From NCBI GenBank assembly GCA_008080595.1, contig VIKI01000016.1, forward strand, positions 1 through 33,150: a stretch of 33,150 bases of DNA, in the 5' to 3' direction. The notes beneath the pieces are model-generated. The model searched no databases, was not told where the DNA came from, and was given only the letters and a program-made list of their open reading frames with translations. Source of the stretch: Comamonadaceae bacterium. GTDB lineage: Bacteria > Pseudomonadota > Gammaproteobacteria > Burkholderiales > Burkholderiaceae_C. Shown here one piece after another: positions 87 to 21,341 of the stretch; positions within the stretch are counted from its first letter, which is position 1, and every line of letters starts with the position of its first letter. The translations under genes were made by a program, and so were the position numbers.

Positions 87-121
87 CCTGTAGCGCTTAT
101 TTATCATGCGCAAACAGCTAT
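87..121 (-). repeat. Dispersed 35-bp-core repeat, copy A
   Basis: Reverse complement: atagctg-ttt-gcgca-tgataaataa-gcgctacagg, between ybeZ and ybeY. Confidence 0.85.
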
Positions 122-139
122 TTATTTTATAGCAATCAT

Positions 140-1222
140 TCAGTTACCGGATTTCTTGCGGCGGGGCGCACGTGCGGCCACATTGGCTTTGGGGGCCGCT
201 TTGGCACGTGTCGGTAGCTTGGGTGGGGTGTGCACCGGCAGCGGAGTGGCTTCAAACGGGGGCATGGGCAGCGCATCGTCACGCGGATGGGGCGGGATGC
301 GGCCCGGCGCGTCGTAGGCATCCACAATGCGGGCCACCAGCGGATGGCGCACCACATCGGCACTGGTCAGGCGGCAGATGGCAATACCTTCCACGCCCTT
401 GAGCACCCGTTCGGCATCAATCAAGCCGCTGAACTGGGTGGTGGGCAGGTCAATCTGGCTCACATCGCCGGTGACCACGGCTTTGGAGCCAAAGCCAATC
501 CGGGTCAAAAACATCTTCATCTGCTCGGGCGTGGTGTTTTGGGCTTCGTCCAGAATCACAAACGAGGTGTTCAGGGTGCGCCCGCGCATGAAGGCCAGCG
601 GCGCGATTTCGATGCTTTGGCGCTCAAAGGCTTTTTGCACCGCCTCAAAACCCATCAAGTCGTACAGCGCGTCGTACAGCGGGCGCAAGTACGGGTCAAT
701 TTTTTGCGCCAGATCACCCGGCAGGTAGCCCAGGCGTTCACCGGCTTCCACTGCCGGGCGGGTCAGCACAATACGCTGCACCGCGCTGCGTTGCAAGGCA
801 TCCACGGCCATCGCCACCGCCAAATAGGTTTTGCCAGTACCGGCCGGGCCAATGCCAAACGTGATGTCGTGGCTGGCAATGCTGTCGAGGTAACGCGCCT
901 GGTTCATGGAGCGGGGTTTCAGGTCGGCACGTTTGGTTTTGAGCGAGGGGCCGTCTTCGCCGTTGACATCACCGTCGCCCGAGAGCATCAGCTGCACCGT
1001 GCGCGGCTCAATCGGACGGGCCGCCATTTCATACAGGGCTTGCAGCATCTCCATGCCGCGCTTGGCGTTGGCTTTGAGGCCGTCCACCTTGAACTGTTCG
1101 TGCCGGTGCGCAATTTTGACCTGCAAGGCGGCCTCAATGGTGCGCAAATGCTCGTCAGTCGGGCCACACAGGTGGGCCAGGCGGGTGTTGTTGGGTGGGG
1201 AAAAAATATGGCGAAGGATCAC
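140..1222 (-). CDS. ybeZ: PhoH family ATPase (YbeZ)
   Basis: Walker [32 protein letters not shown], and PhoH-like [11 protein letters not shown]. Likely GTG start near 1222 ([21 protein letters not shown]) rather than the track start at 1279. Confidence 0.93.
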
Positions 1223-1269
1223 GTTGATAATTCCAGAAAGAGGGACTGTTCCCCCATGATAGGCAAAAA

Positions 1270-1842
1270 ATGATCGCAAAGTTAACCGGTACGCTCGACA
1301 CCAAAAATCCGCCCGCTGTCGTCATCGACTGCCATGGCGTAGGTTACGAGGTGTTTGTGCCCATGAGCACGTTTTACAACCTGCCGGAGCTGGGCAGCAA
1401 GATCACGCTGCTGACGCATTTTGTGGTGCGGGAAGATGCGCAAATTCTGTATGGTTTTGCCACCGCCCAGGAGCGTGAGGGGTTTCGTGAGCTGATCAAA
1501 ATTTCGGGCGTGGGGCCACGCACGGCGCTGTCGATCCTCTCTGGCATGAATGTGACCGAGCTAGCGCAGGCCGTCACCTTGCAGGAGGCGGGCCGACTGA
1601 TCAAGGTGCCAGGCATTGGCAAAAAAACCGCCGAGCGGCTGCTGCTGGAGCTCAAAGGCAAGCTCGGGCCCGACATTGGCGTGGTCGCCAGCCTGGCCAG
1701 CGACGCGCAGAGCGATATTTTGCAGGCATTGCTGGCGCTGGGTTACAGCGACCGTGAGGCCGCTGTGGCGCTGAAAGCCTTGCCCAAAGAGATTGGGGTG
1801 AGCGACGGCATCAAACTGGCGCTGAAGGCACTGGCCAAATAA
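1270..1842 (+). CDS. ruvA: Holliday junction branch migration protein RuvA
   Basis: [28 protein letters not shown]; helix-hairpin-helix [15 protein letters not shown] and [17 protein letters not shown]. Confidence 0.97.
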
Positions 1843-1855
1843 GCGCAACGTCTTT

Positions 1856-3154
1856 TCACTGCGCTTCTCGCACCGGCCGGCCATTGAGCGGCTGAACTGG
1901 GCGGGCATTGTTGGGAAACAGTTGCTGGAACAGGCGGATTTGCTCTTTGCTGAGCTGGGTCGGTGTTTTGAGCACCATCCACAACACGCCTTCGGTGCAG
2001 GGCGGCGTGGTGAGTGAGCCAATGAACTGGTAATAGCGCTGGTCTTTGGGCAGCAACTCGTTCATGTCGACGATGCCGCCAGGCATTCGCACCCGGTCAC
2101 TCGTGTCCAGCGGCATGTAAGTCCACACCTTGTTGATCAGCGGGTTGGCCACGCCGGGATCCAGCAGCACGGCCACCACCGCCAACTGGCCTTCATTGTT
2201 TTTGTGCACCAGGTGCGCCACCATGGCGTAGTTGCGGTAGTTCACCTGCTCCTCGGACGGGGTGTGAAAGTGGAACTGCACCAGCTTGTAGACCGAGCCG
2301 CGTACCGTCAGGGTGTTGTCACCGTACAGGTCGACCTGGATGGTGTGGCCGTTGTTCACCACCGTGCCGCTGGAGGCGGTGTAGTTGAACTGCAGGGGCT
2401 CAGCCGGGCCTTGCAAGGTGACGGATTCCTCAATATTGATGGGTGACTGGCGTTTGCCAATGGCACACACGTTGAATTCGGGTTTGAGCTTGCCCCAGTT
2501 TTGCGGGCCGTTTTCGCCCTCATAAGCCCAATGCGGTTCACCGCCGCCATGGGTGTTGTCGCCATGTGCACCTGTGGCCGGAGCTTCGTGGCCGGTGAGC
2601 GCGGCGGCCTTGGCCTGGATGTAATCCCGGCTGGTTTTGGGATTCACCACCGGGGCTGCCACGGCATGTGCTGCCGGGCGGCGTACCGCTGCGGGGGCTA
2701 CGGCATGGGCTGCGGCCGGTGCGGCATGTTCTGCCACGGGAGCGGCGTGGGCCGCTGCGGCAGGGGCATGTGCTGAACCGGTGGCGGTGGATTTGCTGGC
2801 TGCGGGTTTGAGTTCGGGCTTGTCTTTGATGACCAGGGTCAGGCTTTTCCTGTCGATCAACTTGTCCCGCAGGGCGGCTTTGATGTCCACCGCAAGGTCT
2901 TTGCCTTCCGGGGCAGAGGCCTCTTCGGCTGGTTTTTTTGCGGGCGTGATTTTCTTGACGGTGTGGGCAGGAGCCGCTTCATGTGCGGCGGCGGGTTCTG
3001 CGGCATGACTCAAGGGGGGCATCAGTGCTGCCAAAAAGAGCCCGGTCATGCCACACATCACCCAGGTTTTCCAAGGGTAGGCTATTGAATCGGCCTCAAC
3101 GCGGCAGATGAGTGGCTTGGCAATGGGTTGGGGCATGGTTTTCATGGCAGGCAT
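1856..3154 (-). CDS. Alpha-class carbonic anhydrase with long Ala/Pro/His-rich N-terminal extension
   Basis: QSPINIEES, zinc histidines in QFHFHTPSEEQV and AHLVHK, SLTTPPCTEGVLW. N-terminal hydrophobic segment then about 150 aa low-complexity A/P/H-rich sequence. Confidence 0.94.
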   Translation of the reverse strand: MPAMKTMPQPIAKPLICRVEADSIAYPWKTWVMCGMTGLFLAALMPPLSHAAEPAAAHEAAPAHTVKKITPAKKPAEEASAPEGKDLAVDIKAALRDKLIDRKSLTLVIKDKPELKPAASKSTATGSAHAPAAAAHAAPVAEHAAPAAAHAVAPAAVRRPAAHAVAAPVVNPKTSRDYIQAKAAALTGHEAPATGAHGDNTHGGGEPHWAYEGENGPQNWGKLKPEFNVCAIGKRQSPINIEESVTLQGPAEPLQFNYTASSGTVVNNGHTIQVDLYGDNTLTVRGSVYKLVQFHFHTPSEEQVNYRNYAMVAHLVHKNNEGQLAVVAVLLDPGVANPLINKVWTYMPLDTSDRVRMPGGIVDMNELLPKDQRYYQFIGSLTTPPCTEGVLWMVLKTPTQLSKEQIRLFQQLFPNNARPVQPLNGRPVREAQ

Positions 3155-3280
3155 GGGTCAAATGCTGACCTTGTAAAGGGTTTTTATAACTTGTTATCGG
3201 CACGGGGCGGCATCAGCTTAAGCGTACCGATGCCAGACACGGCGCTATAGTGCCATTTTGTTTCAAAACCCGAGTCTGCC

Positions 3281-4345
3281 TTGAGTATCCAAACCGACGA
3301 CTTTGCCCCCGCGCCGCCCAAACGGGTGGTGTCCAACGCGCCCGCATCCCCCAATGAAGAGGCGATTGAGCGTGCCTTGCGCCCCAAGCTGCTCGATGAA
3401 TACGTCGGCCAGGCCAAAGCCCGTGAGCAGCTGGAGATTTTCATCAACGCCGCCAAGATGCGCGACGAGGCGCTGGACCATGTGCTGCTGTTTGGCCCGC
3501 CTGGCCTGGGCAAAACCACGCTGAGCCACATCATTGCCGCCGAGCTGGGGGTGAACCTGCGCCAGACCAGTGGCCCGGTGCTGGAAAAGCCCAAGGATCT
3601 GGCGGCACTCCTGACCAATCTGGAAAAGAACGATGTGCTGTTCATCGACGAAATCCACCGCCTGAGCCCGGTGGTGGAAGAAATCCTGTACCCGGCGCTG
3701 GAAGACTACAAAATTGACATCATGATCGGCGAAGGCCCGGCGGCACGCTCCATCAAGCTCGACTTGCAGCCCTTCACCCTGGTAGGAGCCACCACCCGCG
3801 CTGGCATGCTGACCAACCCGCTGCGGGATCGCTTTGGCATTGTGGCGCGGCTGGAGTTTTACACGCCCGAGGAACTGGCACGCATCGTCAAGCGCAGTGC
3901 GGGCCTGCTGAATGTGCCGACCGATGAACAGGGCGGCTTTGAGATTGCCCGACGCTCGCGGGGCACGCCGCGTATTGCCAACCGCTTGCTGCGCCGGGTG
4001 CGCGACTATGCCGACGTGAAGGGCTCCGGCGAGATTACGCTGGACATTGCCAACCGCGCCTTGCACATGCTCGACGTGGACCCGCAGGGCTTTGATTTGA
4101 TGGACCGCAAGCTGCTCGAAGCGGTCATCCACCGTTTTGACGGCGGCCCGGTCGGATTGGACAACATTGCCGCCAGCATTGGCGAAGAACGCGAAACCAT
4201 TGAGGACGTGATCGAGCCGTATCTGATTCAGCAGGGCTATTTGCAGCGCACGCCACGCGGGCGCATTGCCACCTTGGCGGCGTACCGGCATCTGGGGGTG
4301 ACACCGCCAGCCAATCAGGCTTCGATTGACTTGTTTGGGGTTTGA
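3281..4345 (+). CDS. ruvB: Holliday junction branch migration ATPase RuvB
   Basis: [12 protein letters not shown], Walker [33 protein letters not shown] start. Confidence 0.97.
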
Positions 4346-4366
4346 TACCAGGGTAACCCCTTTTTT
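4337..4366 (+). terminator. Putative rho-independent terminator overlapping the ruvB stop
   Basis: ggggtt (4337-4342) pairs with aacccc (4355-4360), followed by TTTTTT (4361-4366). Confidence 0.55.
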
Positions 4367-4465
4367 CGCTGGTACAGTTGACGGCATCTATGGATGCCTG
4401 ATGGCTCGGAGGCATCCGCACTGTCAGGTATTTCAGAACATTGGCAAACCCTGTTGAGGCTGAAC

Positions 4466-5371
4466 ATGTCACCCCTACCTTTTCAATTGCTGGTTTCGCT
4501 TGCCCTGATCGGGCCGACACTGGCGCACGCCGCGCCGCCCGAACTGGACGGTACCCTGCGCAAGATTGCCTCCAGTGGAAGCATCGCACTGGGTTACCAC
4601 GAGTCCACACCACCGTTCACATTTCGAACGGCTGACGGCAAGGTCATGGGGTACTCGTATGACTTTGCGCTGAAGATTGCCGAGGCCGTCAAACGGGAAT
4701 TGAACTTGCCTGCGCTGCAAATCGTGCAAGTGCCCTTCACCACCCAGAATCGATTTCCGACCATTCAAAACGGCAGCGCCGACCTGTCGTGCGGGGCTAC
4801 CACCAACACCTTGGAGCGGCAAAAGATCGTTGCTTTCTCCAACACGATATTTGTGGCCGGCTCAAGGCTGATGACGCGCAAGGACTCGGGCATCAAAGAC
4901 TTTACCGACCTGACCGGCAAGAACGTGGTGACCTTTGCCGCATCCACTTCCGAAAAAATGCTGCGCAAATTGAATGCCGAGCAAAACCGGCGCATCCACA
5001 TTGTCAGCACCTTTGATCGCGGCGAAACCCCGTTTTCTGTGCTGCAAGCCAGCCATGCCGATGCCTACATGATGGACGACGTGCTGCTGTACGCTGCCAT
5101 TCACGAGACCTGGCGTCCGGCTGAGTGGACGGTTACCGGCACGCCCCAGTCGTTTGAAGCCTATGGCTGCATCCTGCGCAAGGATGATCCGGCCTTCAAA
5201 AAAGTGGTTGACCAGGAGATTGCCCGCATCATGAAGTCTGGTGAGGCGGATGCCATCTACCGCAAATGGCTGCTTTCGCCCATTCCGCCCAAAGGCATCA
5301 ACTTTGGTTTGACCATGAGCGATGCCATGGTGGATCTCTTCAAGAACCCCAATGACAAACCGTATTACTAA
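4466..5371 (+). CDS. Family-3 (amino-acid type) periplasmic substrate-binding protein, orphan
   Basis: Signal peptide MSPLPFQLLVSLALIGPTLAHA then GTLRKIASSGSIALGYHESTPPFTF, SADLSCGATTNTLERQKIVAFSNTIFVAGSRLM. No permease or ATPase adjacent. Start chosen at the signal peptide rather than the track start 4394. Confidence 0.88.
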   Translation: MSPLPFQLLVSLALIGPTLAHAAPPELDGTLRKIASSGSIALGYHESTPPFTFRTADGKVMGYSYDFALKIAEAVKRELNLPALQIVQVPFTTQNRFPTIQNGSADLSCGATTNTLERQKIVAFSNTIFVAGSRLMTRKDSGIKDFTDLTGKNVVTFAASTSEKMLRKLNAEQNRRIHIVSTFDRGETPFSVLQASHADAYMMDDVLLYAAIHETWRPAEWTVTGTPQSFEAYGCILRKDDPAFKKVVDQEIARIMKSGEADAIYRKWLLSPIPPKGINFGLTMSDAMVDLFKNPNDKPYY

Positions 5372-5398
5372 AGTTGGCAAGTCGAAGTGTTGACTGCC

Positions 5399-7444
5399 AT
5401 GCCAGTAACCGGCTCATTGTTCAAAAAATACGCACTGTTCTTTGGTGCGCTGGTGGGGGGATCACTGTTGATCAGCGGGTTGCTGGATGTTGCTTTTTCG
5501 TATCAGGACAACAAGCAAGCACTGATCCGTCTGCAGCAGGAGAAGGCCCGTAGCGCAGCAGATCGTATTGGGCAGCATCTGTTTGATCTGGAGCAAAAAA
5601 TCAGCAGCACGGTGGCCGTACCCAACGGCCTGTCCAACCTGGATCAGCGCATGGTTGAAATCCAGCTGCTGCGGCGCACCGCCGCGATCCGGGAAATCGC
5701 CTTGCTGGACCCCCAGGGGATCGAGGTTTTGCGGGTGTCCCCATTCAATGCCGACGTGCTGCGCAGCGGTCGCGACCGTTCTGGCGAAGCGGCTTTCCAG
5801 CAGGTCAAATCCGGCAAGCCCTACCGCAGTCCGGTTTACTTTCGTGACAACTCGCTTTACATGACCGTTGCCATGTCGGTGGGGCCTGAGGCCTCCGGCA
5901 TCACTGTTGCGGAAATTGACCTTCAGTTTTTACTGGCGGGTATCACGAAAATCAAGGTGGGCGACACCGGTCATGCCTATGCCGTAGACACCCAGGGTCG
6001 CCTGATTGCACATCCCAACATTGGCCTGGTGCTCAAACACAGCAGCATGATCGACCTGCCACAGGTGCGGGCGGCGATCCAGGATGCCACGCAAGACAGC
6101 GGCGAGTTTGTCGATGCCATCGACCTGGACGGCAAACAGGTGCTGACGGCCTTTGGTGTGATTCCGTACTTGGGCTGGTTCGTTTTTGTTGAAGAACCTA
6201 TCTCGCAGGCCTTCCATCCTTTGTACGCCCAGGCCGTGCGCAGTGCCTTGCTGATCTTGGTTGGCATGGTCGCCACGGTCTTGGCGTGTGTAGCCTTGGT
6301 TCGTCAGATGGTCAAACCCATTCACGCCTTGCGTGATGGTGCCAAGCTGATCGGGCGTGGTGTGTTTGACCAGCCGATCACGGTGCACACCGGTGATGAG
6401 CTGGAGGAGTTGGCCGGTGAGTTCAACCGTATGTCCAGTCAATTGCATGATTCCTACACAACCCTAGAACGAAAAGTTGCCCAGCGTACACAGGAGCTGA
6501 CTGAAAGCGAGCGTTTGCTGCGCCAGGCACAACGGATTGCCGGTTTGGGCAGTTTCACCTGCAACCTGAAGACCGGGGTGTGGACGAGCTCGGAAGTGCT
6601 CGACGAAGTGCTTGGCATCGACAAGGCTTATGAGCGAACGGCCCAAGGCTGGGATGCGCTGGTCCATCCTGATGACTTGCCCGCCGTCAAGGAGGCCTTC
6701 AAGTCAGCCGTGCTTGACAAGAAAAAGGCCATGGACAACGTGTTGCGGATCATTCGACACCATGACCGAGCCGAGCGTTGGGTGCATGGGCTGGGCCGGG
6801 TTGAGTTTGCCCCTGACGGCACCGTCCAATCCCTGCATGGCACGATTCAGGACATTACCGAACGCCAACAGATGGAAGACCAGGTGCGACAACTGGCGTT
6901 TTACGACCCGCTGACGGAGTTGCCCAATCGTCGACTGCTCAACGACCGCTTGAACCAGATGCTCATTGCCGGACGGCGCACGGGGAGTTATGGTGCGTTG
7001 ATGTTCCTCGATCTGGACAACTTCAAACCACTCAATGACCGGTATGGCCACGCCGTGGGTGACCGGCTGCTGATCGAAGTGGCGCAGCGTCTGACCCAAT
7101 GTGTGCGCAAAGCCGATACCGTGTCGCGATTTGGTGGTGACGAGTTTGTGGTGATGTTGTGTGAGCTCAGCAACAACCGGGCCGAAGCCACGCTACAAGC
7201 CCAGGTTGTCGCGGAAAAAATTCGAGCCAGTCTGTCTGAGCTTTACAGCTTGCCGGTTCGGATCGAAGGAAACACGTTGACGACAATCGAGCACCGTTGT
7301 TCTGTCAGCATTGGTGTGATGGTTTTTAATTGCGCCGAAGCCATGGCCGACCACATCCTGAAAGGGGCTGATGCGGCGATGTACCAAGCCAAGGATGCCG
7401 GACGCAACTTGGTGCGCCTCTATGCCGATGTGGCCCCCAGTTGA
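5399..7444 (+). CDS. Membrane diguanylate cyclase: periplasmic Cache-like sensor, HAMP, PAS, GGDEF
   Basis: TM near N-terminus, periplasmic region ending at LLILVGMVATVLACVALV, HAMP-like segment, PAS (SERLLRQAQRIAGLGSFTCNLKTG), GGDEF in SRFGGDEFVVML with I-site RKAD five residues upstream. Confidence 0.92.
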   Translation: MPVTGSLFKKYALFFGALVGGSLLISGLLDVAFSYQDNKQALIRLQQEKARSAADRIGQHLFDLEQKISSTVAVPNGLSNLDQRMVEIQLLRRTAAIREIALLDPQGIEVLRVSPFNADVLRSGRDRSGEAAFQQVKSGKPYRSPVYFRDNSLYMTVAMSVGPEASGITVAEIDLQFLLAGITKIKVGDTGHAYAVDTQGRLIAHPNIGLVLKHSSMIDLPQVRAAIQDATQDSGEFVDAIDLDGKQVLTAFGVIPYLGWFVFVEEPISQAFHPLYAQAVRSALLILVGMVATVLACVALVRQMVKPIHALRDGAKLIGRGVFDQPITVHTGDELEELAGEFNRMSSQLHDSYTTLERKVAQRTQELTESERLLRQAQRIAGLGSFTCNLKTGVWTSSEVLDEVLGIDKAYERTAQGWDALVHPDDLPAVKEAFKSAVLDKKKAMDNVLRIIRHHDRAERWVHGLGRVEFAPDGTVQSLHGTIQDITERQQMEDQVRQLAFYDPLTELPNRRLLNDRLNQMLIAGRRTGSYGALMFLDLDNFKPLNDRYGHAVGDRLLIEVAQRLTQCVRKADTVSRFGGDEFVVMLCELSNNRAEATLQAQVVAEKIRASLSELYSLPVRIEGNTLTTIEHRCSVSIGVMVFNCAEAMADHILKGADAAMYQAKDAGRNLVRLYADVAPS

Positions 7445-7468
7445 GCGCGGTCACCGAGCCGCATCCCT

Positions 7469-8107: not shown

Positions 8108-8700
8108 CTGGGTATCTCGATGTTGACGCGCCGCACCCCGGTGGGCGGCTGGGGGAAGCCTTGAAGTGCCGCATCCAGCAGGGCGGCCAAAATGGGGGTG
8201 TTGTCACTCCACAGCCCGTCATGGGTGGCGTGGCTTTCAAACACCACGGTTTGTGAGGCATCACGCATGATCAGGCTGACCTGTCGCCAGTAGCTGGGTT
8301 GTGCGTCCAGCCCCGGAAACAGTGCGCCCCGGTTACCAATGCTGATGGCCCCATTGCCAAACACCCAGCCCAGCCCAATGCCGATATTCATGCCGCTGTG
8401 GTGGGGGCTGCTTTCCTGCCGTTGCACTGCCGTCACCTGAACGCTGATGGAGGCTGTTTCGGCGTATTTCAAGCCAACTTTGGCCAGGGCTTGCTGCGCC
8501 AGTTGTTCCAGCTGCGCTTGTGCCGGGTCAGCTTGTTGCGAGGGCAGGCGGCTAAAGCGGTAGCTTGAACCGGCGGCCACGGCTTGGGGCGCAAAGCTGT
8601 TGACCTGAGCATCCACCAGCCGTGTGCTGGCACAGCCAGATAATGCAAACGCTATAAAAATAGTAGCCGCTTGCGCATATTTGATAAGCGCTAGATGCAT
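8104..8700 (-). CDS. DUF4136-like lipoprotein
   Basis: Lipobox LSGC in MHLALIKYAQAATIFIAFALSGCASTRLVDAQVNSF; body resembles DUF4136 proteins. Confidence 0.8.
   Translation of the reverse strand: MHLALIKYAQAATIFIAFALSGCASTRLVDAQVNSFAPQAVAAGSSYRFSRLPSQQADPAQAQLEQLAQQALAKVGLKYAETASISVQVTAVQRQESSPHHSGMNIGIGLGWVFGNGAISIGNRGALFPGLDAQPSYWRQVSLIMRDASQTVVFESHATHDGLWSDNTPILAALLDAALQGFPQPPTGVRRVNIEIPR
8663..8697 (+). repeat. Dispersed 35-bp-core repeat, copy B
   Basis: gtagccg-ctt-gcgca-tatttgataa-gcgctagatg; abuts and overlaps the N-terminus of the DUF4136 lipoprotein gene. Confidence 0.85.
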
Positions 8701-10300: not shown

Positions 10301-11104
10301 TCAAAGCAAAGAGAAGTCGCGCTCGAATTTCATCAGGTGCTGACCGCCATCGACCAGCAGTGTGGTGCCGGTGATGGACTGATTGCTCAGGGCAAAAGCC
10401 ACCGTGGCGGCCACATCGGCGGCAGTGGACGAGTGGCCCAGCGGTGAGAGTTTGTGCAGCGCTTCAAATTTTTCAGGGGTCAACATGTGGCTGGTGAGCG
10501 TCAGGCCGGGGGCCACCCCCACCACCCGCACGCGCGGAGCCAGTGCCAGCGCCAGCATGGTGTTGGCCGACTCCAGCGCCGCTTTGGACAGGGTGTAGCT
10601 GACAAAGTCGGGGTTGGGGTTCCACAACTTTTGATCCAGCAGGTTCACCACCGCGCCTGTGGCATCGCGGCTGGCCAGGTGCTCATGCAGCGCCTGACTG
10701 AGCAAAATCGCCGCCCCGGCGTTGGCTCGCATGTGTTTTTCCATGGCGGCAAAGCTGAAGGTCTGGGGGGTGTCATGCTCAAAGGTGCTGGCACTGTTGA
10801 CCAGCGCGTCCACATGACCGAGTTTCTCAATCACCTCAGGGAACAGATGCCGTACCGCAGTTTCATTCCCAAGATTGGCACGAAAAGAGGCACTAACCCC
10901 CGCCAATGCTGCGCAAGCAGCTACTGTTTTACGAGCATCTTCAACCGAATCACGGTAATGCACAGCGACCCGCCAACCGGCTTTGGCCAGAGTCAGGGCA
11001 ATCTCGCGCCCCAGGCGTTTGGCGGCTCCGGTGACCAGCACCGTGGGTTGGCGCGGCAAGTGGGTCGCGGCGGTGAAGTCAGGATCAGATTCGAGGGAGG
11101 ACAT
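10301..11104 (-). CDS. SDR oxidoreductase, pteridine reductase/FolM-like
   Basis: TGAAKRLGREIALTLA (TGxxxRxG-type motif), NSASTF, YTLSK, LLVDGGQHL; adjacent to folB. Start at MSSLESD (11104). Confidence 0.9.
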   Translation of the reverse strand: MSSLESDPDFTAATHLPRQPTVLVTGAAKRLGREIALTLAKAGWRVAVHYRDSVEDARKTVAACAALAGVSASFRANLGNETAVRHLFPEVIEKLGHVDALVNSASTFEHDTPQTFSFAAMEKHMRANAGAAILLSQALHEHLASRDATGAVVNLLDQKLWNPNPDFVSYTLSKAALESANTMLALALAPRVRVVGVAPGLTLTSHMLTPEKFEALHKLSPLGHSSTAADVAATVAFALSNQSITGTTLLVDGGQHLMKFERDFSLL

Positions 11105-11123
11105 TCGGGGACAATTCCAGACT

Positions 11124-12266
11124 ATGACAACACAGACAAGTTTAACGAGTGCGCTTTCAGAGCGCATCACCCAAGCAATCCACCAGGCCGGTGGCTGGAT
11201 CGGTTTTGATACTTTCATGGATTTGGCGCTGTATGCCCCCGGCCTGGGCTACTACGCCCATGGCAGCACCAAATTTGGCACCTTGCCCTACACCGTACAA
11301 GACGGAGCCAAGGTGGCCGGCAGTGATTTTGTCACCGCGCCGGAAATCACCCCGCTGTATGGCTGGACGCTGGCCAAGCAGGTGGCGCAAGCCTTTGAGG
11401 TCACGGGTACGCACGAAATCTGGGAATTTGGTGCCGGCTCTGGCGCACTGGCGTTGCAAGTGTTGCAGGCCTTGCAAGCCATGGGGGTAGCCGTGTCGCG
11501 CTACACCCTTGTGGACATTTCAGACAGTTTGCGGGCGCGTCAACAAACCACTTTGGCAGCCTTTGCCGATCAGGTACGCTGGGTCAACAGCTTGCCAGAC
11601 GACATGCAGGGCGTGGTGCTGGGCAACGAGGTGCTGGATGCCATGCCGGTGAAATTGCTGGCGCGTGTAGGCGGCGTGTGGCATGAGCGCGGTGTGGTGC
11701 TGGGGGCTGCCGATGCCGCAGGCACGCCCGGCTTTGTCTGGCAAGACCGAGCCACGGAGTTGCGTCCCTCTTTGGCGATTCCGGGTGAGCACGATTACCT
11801 GACCGAAATTCACCCGCAAGGTGAATCCTTTGTGCGCACCCTGGGCCACAAACTCAGCGCCGGGGCCATTTTCCTGATCGACTATGGTTTCCCCGAGTCT
11901 GAGTACTACCACCCGCAGCGCCACATGGGCACAGTGATGTGCCACCAGGCCCATCAGGTGGACGATGACCCCTTGAGCCGGGTTGGCCAGAAAGACATCA
12001 CCGCCCACGTCAACTTCACCGGCGTAGCCATGGCGGGTAATGAGGCTGATCTGGGCGTGCTGGGCTACTGCAACCAGGCCCGGTTTTTAATGAACTGCGG
12101 TTTTCTCACCCAGCTGGAAGCGGCAGACCTGCCGACCCGGGTGATGGCGCAAAAACTCATCATGGAGCATGAAATGGGTGAATTTTTCAAGGTAATCGGG
12201 TTCTACAAGGGTGAGCCCTGGCAGGCCCTCGGTTTTGATGTGGGCGACAAAACCCACACCCTGTAG
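11124..12266 (+). CDS. MidA/NDUFAF7-like SAM-dependent methyltransferase (DUF185)
   Basis: GWIGFDTFMDLALYAPGLGYYAHG, DFVTAPEITPLYG, EFGAGSGALALQVL, GNEVLDAMPVKLL. Start at MTTQTSLTS. Confidence 0.93.
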   Translation: MTTQTSLTSALSERITQAIHQAGGWIGFDTFMDLALYAPGLGYYAHGSTKFGTLPYTVQDGAKVAGSDFVTAPEITPLYGWTLAKQVAQAFEVTGTHEIWEFGAGSGALALQVLQALQAMGVAVSRYTLVDISDSLRARQQTTLAAFADQVRWVNSLPDDMQGVVLGNEVLDAMPVKLLARVGGVWHERGVVLGAADAAGTPGFVWQDRATELRPSLAIPGEHDYLTEIHPQGESFVRTLGHKLSAGAIFLIDYGFPESEYYHPQRHMGTVMCHQAHQVDDDPLSRVGQKDITAHVNFTGVAMAGNEADLGVLGYCNQARFLMNCGFLTQLEAADLPTRVMAQKLIMEHEMGEFFKVIGFYKGEPWQALGFDVGDKTHTL

Positions 12267-12617: not shown

Positions 12618-13859
12618 TTGAAGAACTTTTTTGTCAGATTGCAGGCTTGGCATGACGAGCACAACCAGGTTGCCCATGAGGCGCTGTTGGAAAACCTGAG
12701 CCGCTTGCCCTGGATTCTGGCGGCCATGTTGCCATTGCTGGGCTTGGGGTGGTATCTGGCTTGGGGTGGTCATGCCAACCCCAACCCCGCAATCACTCGG
12801 TGGTCCGGGTTGATTGGCTGGATGGATCTGGTGATGTTGCTTGGCCTGTCTGCTTTGCTGATGGTGGTGCGCTGGCGCAAGCTCAACGAACGTGTGACCC
12901 CGCTGAGCCGCCTGTTGCCTGGCGTGCTGGCATCTCTCTTTGTTGGTTTTGGCCTGACTTTGTCTACGCTGTCGCAGTGGTTTTTGCCATCGGCCACCAT
13001 GTATGTGCTGAGTTGTGTATTCGCAGGCACCTTGCTGTTGATACGCCCCAGCATCATGGCGTTGATTTATCTGACCAGCCTCGCCATTTTTTATACCGTG
13101 CTAGGCCACACTGTGACGACTTGGGGTGTGCTGGTGATCATGTGTTTTCATGGTGGCCTTGCGGCGGCCCTGGGCATGTGTTTGTCACTGTTGCTGTGGC
13201 GAAGGTACACCTTGACCGAACTGTTGCACCGACAAGTGCAAGCCCAAGGCCTGGCCCTGGAAGCCCAAAACGCCGAACTTGCGCTGCAGAAGATCCGGCT
13301 GGAAACGCTCTCCCATCACGACCCTTTGACCGGCCTGTTGAACCGCCGGGCCTTTGAAATCCAGGCGGATATGGCCCTGAGCCGGGCTCGCCGTGATGGC
13401 ACGGGTTTGGCCGTCATCATGCTGGATCTGGATCATTTCAAGCGTGTCAACGACCAGCATGGTCACCCCGCAGGAGATGCAGCCATCAAATTCATGGCCC
13501 GTGTGATCCAGAGCAGCGTGCGCGACACCGATCTGGCGGCACGTGTGGGAGGTGAGGAGTTCATGCTGTTGCTGCCTGCCACCAGCGCACTTGCGGCGGG
13601 TGGTGTGGCCGAAAAAATCAGGCAACGTGTGGCCTTGACCTCCATCGAGGTGGGGGGTGACCTGACGGTGCGGGTGACCATCAGCGCGGGTGTCACGGCC
13701 TGGGAGGTGGGTCATGTCGGCAGTTTTGAAGACCTGTACGCCGCCGCCGACGCTGCCTTGTACGCTGCCAAACGTGCTGGTCGTAATCGGGTGATGTTCT
13801 CCGATGGGGTTGCCCATGCACAAAATAAGCCTGTAGAGCTTATTCCTCAAGCGCATTAA
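12618..13859 (+). CDS. Multi-TM diguanylate cyclase (tandem copy 1)
   Basis: About six hydrophobic segments then LTGLLNRRAFE, DLDHFKRVNDQHGHPAGD, I-site RDTD, ARVGGEEFMLLL. Apparent TTG start. Confidence 0.9.
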   Translation: MKNFFVRLQAWHDEHNQVAHEALLENLSRLPWILAAMLPLLGLGWYLAWGGHANPNPAITRWSGLIGWMDLVMLLGLSALLMVVRWRKLNERVTPLSRLLPGVLASLFVGFGLTLSTLSQWFLPSATMYVLSCVFAGTLLLIRPSIMALIYLTSLAIFYTVLGHTVTTWGVLVIMCFHGGLAAALGMCLSLLLWRRYTLTELLHRQVQAQGLALEAQNAELALQKIRLETLSHHDPLTGLLNRRAFEIQADMALSRARRDGTGLAVIMLDLDHFKRVNDQHGHPAGDAAIKFMARVIQSSVRDTDLAARVGGEEFMLLLPATSALAAGGVAEKIRQRVALTSIEVGGDLTVRVTISAGVTAWEVGHVGSFEDLYAAADAALYAAKRAGRNRVMFSDGVAHAQNKPVELIPQAH

Positions 13860-13864
13860 GCTCT
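13830..13864 (-). repeat. Dispersed 35-bp-core repeat, copy D
   Basis: Reverse complement: agagctt-aat-gcgct-tgaggaataa-gctctacagg, at the junction of the tandem GGDEF genes. Confidence 0.8.
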
Positions 13865-13871
13865 TATTTTG

Positions 13872-15083
13872 ATGATGAAAAATTTGAACCATTTGCGTCA
13901 TCAACTGGCACGGTGGCATGTACAGCACAACCAGGTGGCGGATCAGGCTTTGCTGGAAAACCTGGGGAGATTGCCTTGGATTCTGCGGCTTGTGGTGCCA
14001 CTGATGGCCATTGCCTTCTTGCGTGCCTGGTTCTATCCGACCCATGGGGTGCGTAGTGCCGAGCTGTTTTTTCGCTTGATTGCCTGGATGGATTTGGTGA
14101 CGTTCATTTGGCTGGCTTTGCTGTTGTGGTTGATGCACCTCAATCAGTGGTCCCGGCGGATCACTCCATTCAGCCGATCTCTGCCATGGGTCTTCACGGT
14201 TCATTTTGTGCTGTTGGGTGCGGTGATTTCAAGCATGTCGCCCTGGACACTGCCATCCTCCACCATGTATGTGCTCAGTTGCGTTTTTGTCGGCACATTG
14301 TTTTTGCTGCGCCCACGCTGGATGCTCCTGATGTATGCCAGCAGTTACGCGGTCTTGTTTGTCGGCGTGGAGTGGTCTACAGAGGCCTGGAATATCAAGG
14401 AAACTTTGCGGTTTCACGGCGGATTGTCAGCCGTTTTGGGAGCCTGTTTGTCGTTGGTGCTGTGGCGCAGGTACACGGTGACAGAGTTGTTGCGAAAAAA
14501 AGTGGCTGTTCAAAGCCTTCGGCTGAAAGCCCAGAATGCCAGACTGATGCAACAAAAAATTCAACTCAAAAGCCTGTCCTTGCATGACCCCTTGACGGGT
14601 TTGCTGAACCGCCGCGCCTTTGAAGCCCAGGCTGAGCATGCGCTCAGTCGGGCTCGTCGTGATGGCTCGGGTTTGGCCGCAGTGATGCTGGATTTAGACC
14701 ATTTCAAGCGGGTGAACGATCAATACGGTCACCCCGCTGGGGATGAAGTCATCAAATATGTGGCTGGAGTGTTGCGCAGCAGTGTGCGTGAGTCTGACTT
14801 GGTGGCCCGTGTCGGGGGCGAAGAATTCATGGTGTTGCTGCCGGGCACGGCTCAAGATGCCGCCATAGAGGTGGCAGAAAAGATCCGCAGACGGGTGGCG
14901 CAATCTCCGGTACGGATGAGTGCCGCCGAACAGGTCGACATGACGATCAGCGCCGGGGTAGCCGCATTGACTAACAAGCATCTTGGCGAGTTTGCCTTGT
15001 TGTATGCCGCCGCAGATTTGGCGCTGTACCAAGCCAAGCGACTGGGGCGCAACCGGGTCGAGGTGGCCGAGACCGTTTCTTGA
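13872..15083 (+). CDS. Multi-TM diguanylate cyclase (tandem copy 2, paralogue)
   Basis: Same layout: LTGLLNRRAFEAQAEHALSRARRDGSGLAAVMLDLDHFKRVNDQYGHPAGDE, I-site RESD, ARVGGEEFMVLL. Confidence 0.92.
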   Translation: MMKNLNHLRHQLARWHVQHNQVADQALLENLGRLPWILRLVVPLMAIAFLRAWFYPTHGVRSAELFFRLIAWMDLVTFIWLALLLWLMHLNQWSRRITPFSRSLPWVFTVHFVLLGAVISSMSPWTLPSSTMYVLSCVFVGTLFLLRPRWMLLMYASSYAVLFVGVEWSTEAWNIKETLRFHGGLSAVLGACLSLVLWRRYTVTELLRKKVAVQSLRLKAQNARLMQQKIQLKSLSLHDPLTGLLNRRAFEAQAEHALSRARRDGSGLAAVMLDLDHFKRVNDQYGHPAGDEVIKYVAGVLRSSVRESDLVARVGGEEFMVLLPGTAQDAAIEVAEKIRRRVAQSPVRMSAAEQVDMTISAGVAALTNKHLGEFALLYAAADLALYQAKRLGRNRVEVAETVS

Positions 15084-16052: not shown

Positions 16053-16095
16053 ACACAACCTGGCGTGGCGGTCGCCGCGCTGACCTCTTGACGAA

Positions 16096-17097
16096 ATGAC
16101 TTCTATGACGCACAACGTTTTGACCAACATTTTTTGCCTTCCCTCAGGCAGTTCCCCAGTGGCTTGTGTGGACATTGGGGGCACGAAAGTGGCCGTCAAC
16201 ATGGTGGATGAGCACGGTGCTCGGGGCAAGCGGGTGGAGCCTACCGCCACCACCGGGGCCAATGATGCGCTGGCCGTGCAAATCATCCGCATGATCGGGC
16301 AAAGCTGCGCCGCAGCTGGCATTGAGCAGGCTTCGGTGGCCAGGGTTGGGGTCTCGTCATGTGGCCCGTTTGTGCTCAACAAGGGTCTGGTGGAACTGGC
16401 TGCGCCCAACATCTGCGGCGGCCAGGCTGGCCCGGCACGGGGCTTGCCCAATGACTGGAAAACGGCTTTGCTGGAAGCCCCGTTGCGTGCACGCTTTGCC
16501 CATGTGCGGGTAGCAAACGACTGCATTGGCGCACTGGAGGCCGAGCGCCGCTGGGGAGCCCTGCAAGAGGGCGGCGTGCCTTTGGACAACTGTGCCTATG
16601 TCACCTGGAGTACCGGCATTGGCACCGGGGTGTGCGTGGACGGCCATGTGCTGCGTGGCAAAAACGGCAACGCAGGCCACGCCGGGCACATTTTTGTCAG
16701 CGACAACACCGATGCCTTGTGCGGCTGCGGCAACACCGGTGATGTGGAAAGCCTGGTTGCTGGAAACGCCATTGCACGGCGCTTTGCCCCCGTAGGTTAC
16801 CTTGATGCAGCTGCACTTTTTGTAGCTGCCTACGCAGGTGATACAAGAGCTATAGGCCTGATTGATGATTTATGCCAGGTGATGGGGCGAATGCTCTATA
16901 GCATGATTGTCACGCTGGATCTGCAACGTATCAGCCTGGGTGGTAGCGTTTACTGGCATCACCGCGACTATCTTTTACCGCGCCTGCAGGCTGTGGTCAA
17001 AGGCAAATTGCCACCGCTCACCGACGGCTGTGAACTGATCAGTGCCGGATTGGGTGAGCGCGTGGGTGATTTTGGGGCCTTGGCACTGGTGGCCTGA
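16096..17097 (+). CDS. ROK family sugar kinase
   Basis: VDIGGTKVAVNMVDEHG, STGIGTGVCVDGHVLRGKNGNAGHAGHIFV, CGCGNTGDVESLVAGNAIARRF; upstream of a sugar ABC operon. Confidence 0.9.
   Translation: MTSMTHNVLTNIFCLPSGSSPVACVDIGGTKVAVNMVDEHGARGKRVEPTATTGANDALAVQIIRMIGQSCAAAGIEQASVARVGVSSCGPFVLNKGLVELAAPNICGGQAGPARGLPNDWKTALLEAPLRARFAHVRVANDCIGALEAERRWGALQEGGVPLDNCAYVTWSTGIGTGVCVDGHVLRGKNGNAGHAGHIFVSDNTDALCGCGNTGDVESLVAGNAIARRFAPVGYLDAAALFVAAYAGDTRAIGLIDDLCQVMGRMLYSMIVTLDLQRISLGGSVYWHHRDYLLPRLQAVVKGKLPPLTDGCELISAGLGERVGDFGALALVA
16822..16856 (+). repeat. Dispersed 35-bp-core repeat, copy E (inside the ROK kinase gene)
   Basis: gtagctg-cct-acgca-ggtgatacaa-gagctatagg; same spacing as other copies. 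Confidence 0.6.
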
Positions 17098-17130
17098 AAT
17101 ATGGAGTCTCTAAGGGTTAATCCTCCCTTG

Positions 17131-17174
17131 TGTTGCGCGAAAAATTAATTAACAATTAATTAATTCGCGCAACA
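17131..17174. promoter_or_regulatory. Long compound inverted repeat (candidate operator or hairpin)
   Basis: Outer arms tgttgcgcgaa (17131-17141)/ttcgcgcaaca (17164-17174), inner arms aattaatt (17143-17150)/aattaatt (17154-17161), loop aac. Confidence 0.75.
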
Positions 17175-17244
17175 CGGTGTCTGCACGGATCAACCCGCGC
17201 CTTGCGGCCTTCCCGGCTTGCCAGGCAGACAAACAGGAGATCAC

Positions 17245-18495
17245 ATGAACAAATTTTCCAAATTGGCCACCGCAGTGGCCATGGTAGTGGCTGGCAATGC
17301 AGTTTTGGCTGGAGAGGTTGAAGTGCTGCACTACTGGACTTCCGGCGGTGAAGCCAAGTCAGCCGCTGAGCTGAAGAAAATCATGCAAGCCAAAGGCCAT
17401 GTCTGGAAAGATTTTGCTGTGGCTGGTGGGGGTGGTGACAACGCCGCCACGGTGCTGAAGAGCCGCGTGGTCTCTGGTAACCCGCCTGCTGCCGCCCAAA
17501 TCAAAGGCCCGGCCATTCAGGAGTGGGCCAGCGAAGGTGTCTTGGCCAATCTGGATGCCGTTGCCAAGGCCGAACAATGGGACAGTCTGTTGCCAGGTGT
17601 GGTGGCCAATGTCATGAAATACAAGGGCAACTACGTGGCTGCACCGGTGAACGTGCACCGCGTCAACTGGATGTGGGCCAACAGCGCTGTGCTGAAAAAA
17701 GCCGGTGTGGCTGGTGCACCCAAAACCTGGGACGAGTTTTTTGCAGCGGCCGACAAGGTGAAAAAAGCCGGGTTGATTGCGGTGGCCCATGGTGGTCAAA
17801 ACTGGCAAGATTTCACCACCTTTGAGTCAGTGGTGCTGGGTGTGGGTGGTGCCAAGTTCTACAGCGACGCACTGGTCAAGCTGGATCAAAAAGCGCTGAC
17901 CAGCGCCACCATGACCAAGGCGCTGGAAACCTTCCGCAAGGTCAAGAGCTACACCGACCCAGCTGCGCCTGGCCGCGACTGGAATCTGGCCACCGCTATG
18001 GTGATTCAGGAAAAGGCCGCCTTCCAGTTCATGGGTGACTGGGCCAAGGGCGAATTCTCGGCTGCAGGCAAGGTACCGGGCAAAGACTACATTTGCGCCG
18101 CTGCACCTGGCACGGCCAATGCCTACACCTTCAATGTGGACTCGTTTGCCATGTTCAAGCTGAAAGATGCTGCTGCGCAAAAAGCGCAAGCTGATCTGGC
18201 AGCCAGCATCATGGGCACCGAGTTTCAGGAAGTGTTCAACCTGAACAAGGGCTCCATTCCTGTGCGTCTGAACATGAACATGGCCAAGTTTGACGATTGC
18301 GCCAAGCTCTCCAGCAAAGACTTTGTGGAAACCGCCAAAACCGGTGGTCTGGTGCCTTCTGTGGCCCACGGCATGGCGATCAAACCCGCAGCTGAAGGCG
18401 CCCTCAAAGACGCAGTCAGCCAGTTCTGGAATGACGACAAGATCAGCGTGGCTGATGGTGTGAAAAACATCGCCAAGGCGGCGGCGACCAAGTAA
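17245..18495 (+). CDS. Sugar ABC transporter substrate-binding protein (extracellular family 1, GtsA-like)
   Basis: Signal peptide MNKFSKLATAVAMVVAGNAVLA; VEVLHYWTSGGEAKSAAELKKIMQAKGHVWKDFAVAGGGGDNA; AGGAG upstream of ATG. Confidence 0.93.
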   Translation: MNKFSKLATAVAMVVAGNAVLAGEVEVLHYWTSGGEAKSAAELKKIMQAKGHVWKDFAVAGGGGDNAATVLKSRVVSGNPPAAAQIKGPAIQEWASEGVLANLDAVAKAEQWDSLLPGVVANVMKYKGNYVAAPVNVHRVNWMWANSAVLKKAGVAGAPKTWDEFFAAADKVKKAGLIAVAHGGQNWQDFTTFESVVLGVGGAKFYSDALVKLDQKALTSATMTKALETFRKVKSYTDPAAPGRDWNLATAMVIQEKAAFQFMGDWAKGEFSAAGKVPGKDYICAAAPGTANAYTFNVDSFAMFKLKDAAAQKAQADLAASIMGTEFQEVFNLNKGSIPVRLNMNMAKFDDCAKLSSKDFVETAKTGGLVPSVAHGMAIKPAAEGALKDAVSQFWNDDKISVADGVKNIAKAAATK

Positions 18496-18511
18496 ACACC
18501 CAGGTGTCTCG

Positions 18512-18544
18512 ACCCCATCCGCTGGTCGGGTGGGGTTCTTTTTT
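18512..18544 (+). terminator. Rho-independent terminator/attenuator between binding-protein and permease genes
   Basis: accccatccg-ctggt-cgggtggggt, 10-bp stem with one G.T wobble, followed by tcttttttg. Confidence 0.85.
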
Positions 18545-18572
18545 GCTGCCTCCCGGTGTTGTTGGGAACCCC

Positions 18573-19451
18573 ATGAAATCATTTGAAAACGTTTTACCCA
18601 AGCTGGTGATCGCGCCGGGCTTTGTGCTCGGGTTTGCCTTCATTTATGGCTTGATGATCTGGAACGGCGTGTTGTCCGTGACCAACTCACGCATGTTGCC
18701 CAACTACGACGAATTCGTCGGGCTGGAGCAGTACGTCAAGTTGTGGGAAATGGACCGCTGGTACGTGGCGCTGAAAAACCTCGGCATTTTCAGCGTGTTG
18801 TATGTGGGTGGCTCGATGCTGCTGGGCATGCTGCTGGCGATTTTTCTGGACCAGAAAATCCGCTTTGAAGGCGCGATCCGCACCATTTATTTGTACCCCA
18901 TGGCACTGTCATTCATTGTGACCGGTACGGCCTGGAAATGGATTTTGAACCCCAGCCTAGGGCTGGAAAAACTGATGCACGACATAGGCTGGGCCTCGTT
19001 CAGTTTTGACTGGCTGGTGCAGTCTGACACCGCCATTTACTGCGTGGTGATTGCCGGTATCTGGCAGTCGGCAGGTTTTGCCATGGCCTTGTTTTTGGCG
19101 GGGCTGCGCGGTATTGACGACAGCATCATCAAAGCGGCGCAGATCGACGGGGCCAGCCTGCCGCGTATTTACTGGCGCATTATCTTGCCGGTGTTGCGTC
19201 CGGTGGTGTTCTCCACCATTCTGGTGCTGTCACACCTGTCCATCAAGGCCTTTGACCTGGTGATGGCGCTCACCGCCGGTGGGCCGGGCTATGCCTCTGA
19301 TGTGCCCGCCACCTTCATGTTCACCATGAGTTTCACCCGGGGCCAGATTGGTCTGGGCGCTGCCAGCGCCACCATGATGCTGGCCATGGTGGCGGCCATT
19401 GTGGTGCCTTACCTGTACAGCGAATTACGCTCCAAACCTCATGAGCACTGA
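18573..19451 (+). CDS. Sugar ABC transporter permease 1
   Basis: Multi-TM; EAA loop KAAQIDGASLPRIYWRIILPVLRPVV. Start at MKSFENV, downstream of the terminator. Confidence 0.93.
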   Translation: MKSFENVLPKLVIAPGFVLGFAFIYGLMIWNGVLSVTNSRMLPNYDEFVGLEQYVKLWEMDRWYVALKNLGIFSVLYVGGSMLLGMLLAIFLDQKIRFEGAIRTIYLYPMALSFIVTGTAWKWILNPSLGLEKLMHDIGWASFSFDWLVQSDTAIYCVVIAGIWQSAGFAMALFLAGLRGIDDSIIKAAQIDGASLPRIYWRIILPVLRPVVFSTILVLSHLSIKAFDLVMALTAGGPGYASDVPATFMFTMSFTRGQIGLGAASATMMLAMVAAIVVPYLYSELRSKPHEH

Positions 19452-20309
19452 ATGATGAACGCCAAGAACCTCTCTCGCCTGGCGGTTTATGCCGTGCTGG
19501 GCATCGCTGCCTTCTTCTTTCTGGCACCGCTGTATGTGATGCTGGCCACCAGCTTCAAGGATGCCGAGCAAATCCGCTCCGGCAATTTGTTGAGCTTGCC
19601 CCACGGCCTGAACTTTGAATCGTGGACGCTGGCCTGGTCTACCGCCTGTACCGGGGTGGACTGCCGGGGCCTGAAGCCGTATTTTTGGAACTCGGTGATG
19701 ATGGCCGTGCCCGCCGTACTGATCTCCACCCTGTGGGGTGCGCTCAACGGTTATGTGCTCTCCATGTGGAAATTCAAAGGCTCGGACCTGCTGTTTGGCT
19801 TCATTCTGTTTGGTGTGTTCATGCCGTTCCAGGTGGTGCTGCTGCCCATGAGTCAGGTGCTGGGTTTTCTGGGTTTGAGCAGTTCCATTACCGGCTTGGT
19901 GCTGGTGCACTGTCTGGCCGGCATGGCGGGCACCACGCTGTTTTTCAGAAACTACTACACCGCCATTCCGCGTGAACTGGTCAACGCGGCACGTATGGAT
20001 GGGGCGGGTTTCTGGCGCATCTTCTACCGTATCGTGATCCCGATGTCGACCCCGATTCTGATGGTCACCCTGATCTGGCAGTTCACCAACATCTGGAACG
20101 ACTTCCTGTTTGGTGTGGCTTTCAGCGGTGCTGACAGCAAACCCATCACCGTCGGCCTGAACAACATGGCCAACACCACCAGCAGCGTCAAGAGCTACAA
20201 CGTGGACATGGCAGCGGCCATCATCGCCGGTTTGCCGACCATGCTGGTTTATGTGCTGGCAGGTCAATATTTCGTCAAAGGTCTCACAGCTGGCGCTGTG
20301 AAAGGATAA
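19452..20309 (+). CDS. Sugar ABC transporter permease 2
   Basis: Multi-TM; VNAARMDGAGFWRIFYRIVIPMSTPIL EAA loop; Cys-containing periplasmic insert STACTGVDCRGLKPYFWNS as in GtsC-type permeases. Confidence 0.93.
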   Translation: MMNAKNLSRLAVYAVLGIAAFFFLAPLYVMLATSFKDAEQIRSGNLLSLPHGLNFESWTLAWSTACTGVDCRGLKPYFWNSVMMAVPAVLISTLWGALNGYVLSMWKFKGSDLLFGFILFGVFMPFQVVLLPMSQVLGFLGLSSSITGLVLVHCLAGMAGTTLFFRNYYTAIPRELVNAARMDGAGFWRIFYRIVIPMSTPILMVTLIWQFTNIWNDFLFGVAFSGADSKPITVGLNNMANTTSSVKSYNVDMAAAIIAGLPTMLVYVLAGQYFVKGLTAGAVKG

Positions 20310-20316
20310 ATAAATC

Positions 20317-21341
20317 ATGGCAGCATCACTCCACATTGCAGGCATTCGCAAGGTTTTTGGCAAGGGCGACAAAACCGTCGAAATTTTGAAAAAAATCGAC
20401 ATTGACGTAGCCCCCGGCGAATTCCTGATTCTGGTTGGCCCATCAGGCTGCGGCAAGTCCACCCTGCTCAACATCATTGCCGGTCTGGAAGACCCGACCG
20501 AGGGCGAGCTGAAGATCGCTGGTAAAAACGTCATCGGCGTGGCTCCGGCCCAGCGTGACATTGCCATGGTGTTCCAGAGTTATGCGCTCTACCCGACCAT
20601 GAGTGTGGCCGACAACATTGGTTTTGCGCTGGAAATGCGCAAGGTACCGTTGGAGGTACGCCAAAAACGCATCCAGGAAGTGGCTGCCATGTTGCAGATT
20701 GAGCACTTGCTGGATCGCCGCCCGGCGCAACTCTCGGGTGGCCAGCGCCAGCGCGTGGCCATGGGGCGAGCCTTGGCGCGTGACCCGCAACTGTTCTTGT
20801 TTGACGAGCCGCTCTCCAACCTGGATGCCAAACTGCGGGTGGAAATGCGGGCTGAAATCAAGCGCCTGCATAAGCCATGACGCTGGGCAGCCGCATTGCG
20901 GTGATGAAAGACGGTGTGCTGCAGCAAATCGGCACACCGGATGACATTTACCGCCGTCCGGCCAACACCTATGTGGCCGGATTCATTGGTTCGCCAACTA
21001 TGAATTTCATAGCTGGCAGCGCAAGTGACACGGGCGCTACAGGTCAATTTTCCTTTGAAGGCGGGACGCTGGAGCTGCCTTGCCCGACCCATGGCCCAGT
21101 GATCCTGGGCCAGCGACCCGAGCACATTCATCTGGCCGACGATGCGCCCTGGCGTGGTGAGGTCATGCTGGTGGAGCCCACAGGGGCAGATACCTATGTG
21201 GTGATCAAAACCGGTGCGGGTCTGGTGACTGTGCGCACCCCTCCCAGTACACAGGTCAAGATGGGGGACAGCGTAGGCCTATCGGTCAGCGCCAACCACA
21301 ACAACTGGTTTGATGCACAGACAGGTTTGCGGCTGGGTTAA
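20317..21341 (+). pseudogene. Sugar ABC transporter ATPase (MalK/UgpC type) broken into two ORFs (20317-20880 and 20877-21341)
   Basis: First ORF has Walker A GPSGCGKS, Q-loop FQSYALYP, signature LSGGQRQRVAMGRALARDP, Walker B LFLFDEP, D-loop SNLD, then RLHKP*. Second ORF, in another frame, resumes at MTLGSRIAVMKDGVLQQIG. The expected ..xLGxTxxYVTHDQxEA.. segment with the H-loop histidine is absent. Confidence 0.82.
21009..21043 (+). repeat. Dispersed 35-bp-core repeat, copy F (inside the ABC ATPase 3' ORF)
   Basis: atagctg-gca-gcgca-agtgacacgg-gcgctacagg, followed by tcaattttc; copy A (reverse complement) continues ccattttc. Confidence 0.75.

Follow-up and report, generated by a model that had tools for sequence, protein, structure and literature searches.

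Self-specific DNA uptake has been established in only two families of bacteria (PMC7811141), and the hallmarks of uptake signal sequences (USS) and DNA uptake sequences (DUS) have been described (PMC1626085, PMC1939737, PMC7811141). The USS of Haemophilus influenzae are not insertions, as judged by the orthologue test that is also used below; they have no preferred orientation and are more frequent in non-coding DNA (PMC1626085), and the rigidity of their AT tracts matters for uptake (PMC7811141). Acidovorax temperans is transformed only by the DNA of its own species, and Verminephrobacter eiseniae binds DNA selectively and takes it up in a type IV pili-dependent manner, with no signal named for either (PMC4212676). 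A study published in 2017 reported two spaced motifs that were left unexplained, GCTTAT(N)5AAGCG with 114 copies in Acidovorax ebreus and ATAGCT(N)22CAAAAG with 125 copies in Polaromonas naphthalenivorans, and found the highest number of motif pairs in Rhodoferax ferrireducens (PMC5217627). Here, we describe a family of dispersed repeats, referred to as the element, with six copies in a window of 33,150 nucleotides, which is the whole stretch of DNA analysed (contig VIKI01000016.1 of a freshwater Comamonadaceae bacterium). Inside genes, the element is written and erased by substitution, and the family as a whole resembles the uptake signals in its genomic behavior.

The repeat unit, its copies and its range

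The genome to which the window belongs (G000) comprises 5.42 Mb in 322 contigs. In this genome, the core pattern TAGCTG-N3-GCGCA-N10-GCGCTA, with at most two mismatches, has 237 and 235 matches on the two strands, 472 together, while the backwards control has 0 and 1. A position matrix was built from 431 kb of G000 and re-estimated on 807 kb; it finds 145 copies in the 807 kb, which corresponds to one per 5.6 kb and to about 970 in the whole genome. The reversed sequence yields no match that exceeds 15 bits. The conserved unit spans about 66 bp (ca. −15 to +51 relative to TAGC) and has the consensus tGCTAtnAAwTtnATAGCTGCTTGCGCwTnnTnnAyAAGCGCTAgAGGCCnATTTnncTnatAAA in a fixed register, with an information content of about 54 bits. 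It consists of the GC-rich blocks TAGCTGCnnGCGC and AAGCGCTnGAGGCC, with AT or A-tract segments between them and on both sides. A preliminary description of the window had proposed a dispersed family with a constantly spaced core of 35 bp. That observation is correct, and the family is larger than it stated, with a longer unit; what found no support is the notion of a moving element, as discussed below.

The six copies in the window score 39–83 bits, and no others were found within it:

69..134, minus strand: element copy (core 87-121) scoring 83 bits, intergenic; its orthologous counterpart in G122, a complete genome of the same genus, scores 77 bits
8650..8715, plus strand: element copy (core 8663-8697) scoring 76 bits, at a gene junction; its orthologous counterpart in G122 scores 72 bits
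10872..10937, minus strand: element copy (core 10890-10924), within an SDR oxidoreductase gene (10301-11218, minus strand)
13812..13877, minus strand: element copy (core 13830-13864), spanning the junction of two GGDEF genes, over the end of the first (12618-13859) and the start of the second (13869-15083)
16809..16874, plus strand: element copy (core 16822-16856), within a ROK-family sugar kinase gene (16096-17097, plus strand)
20996..21061, plus strand: element copy (core 21009-21043), within the 3′ portion of the gene for a UgpC-like ABC ATPase (20877-21341, plus strand)

These are the copies of the preliminary description, with every coordinate and strand correct. The one at 10890-10924, which had been called weaker, is genuine, with about 39–46 bits and copy-bearing orthologues. 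The occurrence of copies in both orientations, at gene junctions and in gene interiors, and with AT-rich flanks in common, was likewise upheld.

The suggestion that similar repeats are common in Comamonadaceae is borne out by counts across the host family. In 151 genomes searched from the host's GTDB family, about 30 genera have tens to 835 matches, and the remainder are at background; 117 genomes from 50 other families of the same order have 0–4 matches each. Matrices made from other genera, with genomes of 59–69% GC, have the full anatomy and register unchanged. They differ in dialect, for example with GCGCTT replacing GCGCAT and CCA or CTC replacing CTT, and the family combines occurrence among relatives with lineage dialects, as do USS and DUS. 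At loci related to the window, many Rhodoferax genomes carry copies, and the Hydrogenophaga loci have none. In the dialect of one genome (G086), some cores are near-perfect palindromes, TAGCTGCCAGCGCTT-N7-AAGCGCTGGCAGCTA, and the pattern matches them on both strands (e.g., C11:939135-939171).

Coding copies arise by substitution

We collected 80 related loci around the sugar transporter genes of the window. In the ROK kinase (16822), UgpC (21009) and SDR (10890) genes, a copy at the same gene position is present in some genomes and absent in others. The same is seen in a further gene, which has two copy sites 864–900 bp apart and which, from its RDLTINAIA motif, is probably a CCA-adding tRNA nucleotidyltransferase. 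Miniature inverted-repeat transposable elements (MITEs) and Rickettsia palindromic elements (RPEs) are insertions that leave an empty site in relatives, and no such gap was found at the coding sites. At the ROK kinase site, which lies in a conserved protein segment, 28 of 28 copy-lacking homologues align without a deletion. The UgpC site has a copy in 12 of the 61 aligned loci, and the copy-lacking loci again align without a deletion (46/46). For the SDR site, there are 9 copy-bearing and 29 copy-lacking orthologues, and all 29 of the latter are gap-free. The two sites of the further gene are gap-free in most comparisons with copy-lacking homologues; its N-terminal site is located in a length-variable stretch, where some reference sequences show gaps. 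In-frame insertion, as in the RPEs, is rejected by these gap-free orthologues, which also give no support to the idea of mobility in the preliminary description.

The third codon positions show how the word is written. At codons with an unchanged amino acid, the third base agrees with the consensus of the element in 71–82% of cases in copy-bearing orthologues (107/131, 107/144, 108/152, 113/142 and 72/95 at the five sites) vs 19–29% in copy-lacking orthologues (50/225, 67/310, 20/108, 44/190 and 52/179, in the same order). The third-position AT content (AT3) of the flanks is similar between copy-bearing and copy-lacking orthologues. This synonymous-site test rules out protein constraint as the reason for shared DNA at orthologous loci, which had been raised as an alternative. 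A codon-preserving control gives a similar picture, since coding matches above 22 bits number 45 in the real genes vs 0–5 when synonymous codons are shuffled gene by gene. The family thereby withstands the refutation set in the preliminary description, a copy number no higher than in shuffled or codon-preserving sequence. Furthermore, a tree of 81 loci implies at least 5–10 changes of state per site. Taken together, the gap-free orthologues, the third-base excess, the loss of matches on shuffling and the repeated state changes show that the element word in genes is gained and lost through substitutions, within the limits set by the protein. Coding copies of USS and DUS also arise by substitution.

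The G122 genome has 188 copies per Mb, and 10 of the 12 copies of G000 that were tested have a G122 copy at the orthologous site. The copy at 69-134 of the window and its counterpart (L201, ca. 1953) differ at many positions beside well-conserved, partly coding flanks, yet both are strong, at 83 and 77 bits; replacement by other copies through recombination is possible.

Two side observations concern the genes themselves. In three loci (L004, L005 and L006, near 1501-1530), copies that overlap gene starts code for the hydrophobic stretch in N-termini that resemble signal peptides (e.g., MNTIKTIAACAVSISATSLFLVN), and the DNA word of the element may be reused as a secretion signal at some gene starts. 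The UgpC-like ATPase gene of the window (20317-21341) is split into two overlapping frames of 187 and 154 amino acids, which span profile positions 2-182 and 199-354; this is a frameshift, either genuine or an assembly error.

Readout, placement and occurrence in foreign DNA

What reads the element? Mutual information among the 145 copies is almost wholly between adjacent bases. Three candidate helices show no Watson–Crick covariation in the 145 copies of this genome (observed 791, 667 and 379, vs expected 782, 656 and 384), and pairing in the left GCTAT/ATAGC pair equals the independent expectation. The AT segments are A-tracts (ATTT, TTTT, AAAA and AAAT) that mostly avoid TpA steps. The absence of covariation, the adjacent-base dependence and the A-tracts favor readout of the duplex over hairpins formed by RNA or a single strand, and the element is probably read in this genome as double-stranded DNA by a protein. 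RNA hairpins formed from the three helices and the GCTAT/ATAGC pair are rejected for lack of covariation; likewise, the weakly palindromic layout of the preliminary description finds no support as a structure in this genome. A hairpin maintained by pairing, as in repetitive extragenic palindromic (REP) sequences and their REPIN doublets, was not found here, nor were the covarying helices or an Rfam match that a structured RNA would have. In one other genome, positions 7 and 29 are weakly associated, which suggests that the dyad may matter in some dialects.

For placement, the gene calls are our own codon-model predictions. Of the 145 copies, 91 are intergenic, although intergenic DNA is only 14% of the total, and 52 are wholly within predicted genes. 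The median score is 65 bits for intergenic vs 47 bits for in-gene copies. Orientation relative to genes is mixed; the main in-gene frames are anti-1 (22 copies) and same-2 (16 copies), which are the frames in which the unit reads through without stops. Copies on both strands are interspersed along complete chromosomes, with no orientation bias, and copies per stretch fit Poisson counts. A distribution linked to the origin or to replichores was considered and rejected, as a stricter pattern gives an even spread. Many dispersed chromosomal copies, no orientation bias and a preference for non-coding DNA are also characteristic of USS and DUS.

The element is scarce in DNA that is likely to be foreign, as judged by one plasmid and by low GC content as a proxy for acquisition, and in this it again agrees with USS and DUS. 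In R. ferrireducens T118, the 250 kb examined of the 257-kb plasmid contain no copies, where 45 would be expected at the chromosomal density of G000; loci of two other R. ferrireducens genomes carry 0.14–0.19 copies per kb. The 5-kb windows of G000 with less than 53% GC contain 3 copies vs 15.8 expected. A strict pattern search of 2.9 million viral contigs gave 47 matching stretches (L256-L302), which may lie in host flanks of proviruses, vs 1 in the reversed control. BLAST gave one match in plasmids and none in phages, a weak result because the threshold detects only about 41 of the 145 known copies. The element-free R. ferrireducens plasmid (L235 and L236; NC_007901 100001-200000) carries a type IV CRISPR (csf) locus, type I-E cas1e and Cas6e-type genes, and a PRTRC gene set.

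Two genes were followed across genomes. The competence gene comEC is present in 30 of 30 copy-rich genomes tested. In one genome (G004), comEC (L238, G004:C1:1835500-1839000) is split over three frames by two apparent frameshifts, and the copy density is lower, 60 per Mb in the sample. Decay of copies in genomes with a broken comEC was considered and dropped, as the ratios of strict to loose matches depend on dialect. The Y1 transposase RAYT is a conserved single-copy gene across the family, present in 28 of 30 copy-rich and 15 of 20 copy-poor genomes. In 9 of 21 RAYT genes, an element copy is centered 22–34 bp 3′ of the stop codon, in the same relative orientation (L052, ca. 5429-6160, L213, L215-L217, L225, L227, L228 and L232). 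The ends of the RAYT gene carry another terminal repeat, TTAATTGGGG[T/A]CA, and the element copy 3′ of RAYT has apparently grown from TATCAAAATTGATAGC. A REP/RAYT pair would have the same repeat on both sides of RAYT; the element is found on the 3′ side only, in the 9 of 21 cases.

Interpretation and comparison with known systems

We suggest that the best reading is an uptake-signal-like family that has spread by point mutation and biased recombination, to which we assign a probability of about 0.52. The copies are dispersed, have no preferred orientation and favor non-coding DNA, and those in genes are built by substitution; the unit sets A-tracts next to a GC core, dialects exist, and foreign DNA has few copies. 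This USS/DUS-like combination, together with the DNA-specific transformation in Acidovorax and Verminephrobacter, favors an uptake signal. The competence machinery, with its type IV pilus, would prefer DNA bearing the element, and recombination of the imported DNA would ratchet chance resemblances, also within genes, toward the consensus. This would be molecular drive as described for Pasteurellaceae USS and Neisseriaceae DUS, and in coding DNA the element would spread through point substitutions where the sequence is already similar to it. The reader protein would be part of the uptake machinery, and drive, not host selection, would build the copies. More tentatively, at a shade under even odds, we propose that a third lineage, of about 30 Comamonadaceae-type Burkholderiales genera, has evolved its own, several-fold longer uptake signal, read via the shape of about six helical turns of duplex and drive-written into about 1000 sites per genome, including conserved enzymes.

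Several points weigh against an uptake signal. The unit is far longer and, at about 54 bits, more informative than the 10–12-bp DUS or the ca. 29-bp USS, and the density of one per 5.6 kb is several-fold below theirs. Competence genes fail to account for where copies occur, since comEC is also found in 18 of the 20 copy-poor genomes. Transformation by the same species only can also reflect the homology needs of recombination. Finally, intergenic copies may have arisen in another way: the two without a G122 counterpart lie at sites that differ by 41–47 nt in length, and comparable intergenic sites are few.

The main rival, which we consider rather unlikely, is that the element is the binding site of a chromosome-organizing or nucleoid protein, or of a topoisomerase, that recurs about every 5–6 kb and is kept by host selection, with chance resemblances in genes improved because each site aids DNA packing or segregation. 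Duplex readout with A-tracts, the length of the site, the even chromosome-wide spread and the depletion on the plasmid and in low-GC DNA would all suit such a protein, as would the fact that only some genera carry copies, though comEC is nearly universal. However, the copies lack chromosomal order, with Poisson spacing and no strand bias, and each site has been gained and lost repeatedly. Selection that holds about 970 sites of about 54 bits within conserved enzymes would be hard to picture without drive. A REP/REPIN- or MITE-like element moved by the single-copy RAYT is improbable, given that the coding copies are not insertions, pairing does not covary in this genome, the plasmid has no copies and 10 of 12 of the genome's own copies are at sites shared with another species. 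It would account for the intergenic majority (91/145), the imperfect dyad symmetry of the core, the RAYT gene in nearly all copy-rich genomes (28/30) and the copies at a fixed distance and orientation past 9 of 21 RAYT stop codons; yet RAYT is also found in three-quarters of the copy-poor genomes (15/20), and its flanks bear a different terminal repeat.

Many copies lie near gene ends, and hairpins can be drawn for them, as a terminator, an mRNA hairpin or a small RNA target would have it. Such an RNA-level role is nevertheless very improbable in view of the missing covariation, the lack of an Rfam match and the copies within genes in either orientation (anti-1, 22; same-2, 16). Look-alikes produced by chance or by a protein motif have almost no probability left. 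The few frames used by in-gene copies, encoding [IV]AAxAxxTGA, are what speaks for them, and they are refuted by the synonymous shuffle (45 vs 0–5), the third-base excess at unchanged amino acids, the copies in unrelated proteins and the intergenic enrichment.

If the uptake reading is true, the element would be a third, independent uptake-signal system that shows how such signals evolve, and it could account for the as yet unexplained DNA specificity seen when Acidovorax and Verminephrobacter are transformed. It would also provide a genome-wide marker of native vs acquired DNA in many environmental bacteria and an aid to building genetic tools for these strains. If a nucleoid factor reads the element instead, what is described here is a chromosomal binding site of unusual length and abundance that is built inside genes. 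Our literature search found no uptake sequence reported for Comamonadaceae, subscription papers being mostly outside the search.

How does the element compare with known systems? We claim that the family behaves like USS and DUS, and we do not file it as a member of either. It shares with the Pasteurellaceae USS (e.g., of Haemophilus influenzae) a GC-rich core with AT tracts, a high copy number, no orientation bias, a non-coding preference with many coding copies, an origin by substitution and dialects among relatives. The likeness is genomic only: the sequence is unrelated, the unit has about 66 bp and 54 bits vs a 9-bp core within about 29 bp, and the density is lower. The DUS of the Neisseriaceae is a 10–12-bp word with the pilin receptor ComP, and the element resembles it in chromosomal dispersal, dialects and uneven presence in acquired DNA. 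Cyanobacterial HIP1 is an over-represented octamer, an 8-bp perfect palindrome with thousands of copies that is kept via synonymous codon choice; the element is likewise an over-represented DNA word kept by synonymous codon choice, but it is not such a palindrome. RPEs also sit within protein genes in usable frames, but they arise by in-frame insertion of about 150 bp (PMC10969869), whereas the element shows no insertion in coding DNA. The betaproteobacterial repeat element (BRE) is similarly dispersed, with some coding copies, and has been counted in Comamonadaceae; it differs in having about 90 bp and few, sometimes tandem, copies, a distinction made from the published description of BRE (PMC3110155). 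The A. ebreus motif comes from the same bacterial group, has an intergenic preference and equals the inner core of the element, GCGC-TTAT-N5-AAGCG, with identical spacing; the spacing of the Polaromonas motif is not an exact fit. That study presents over-represented motif pairs only, without the full unit, an analysis of coding sites or an explanation. The core of the motif has already been published (PMC5217627), while the full unit, the substitution-built coding copies, the family-wide range and the uptake reading appear to be new.

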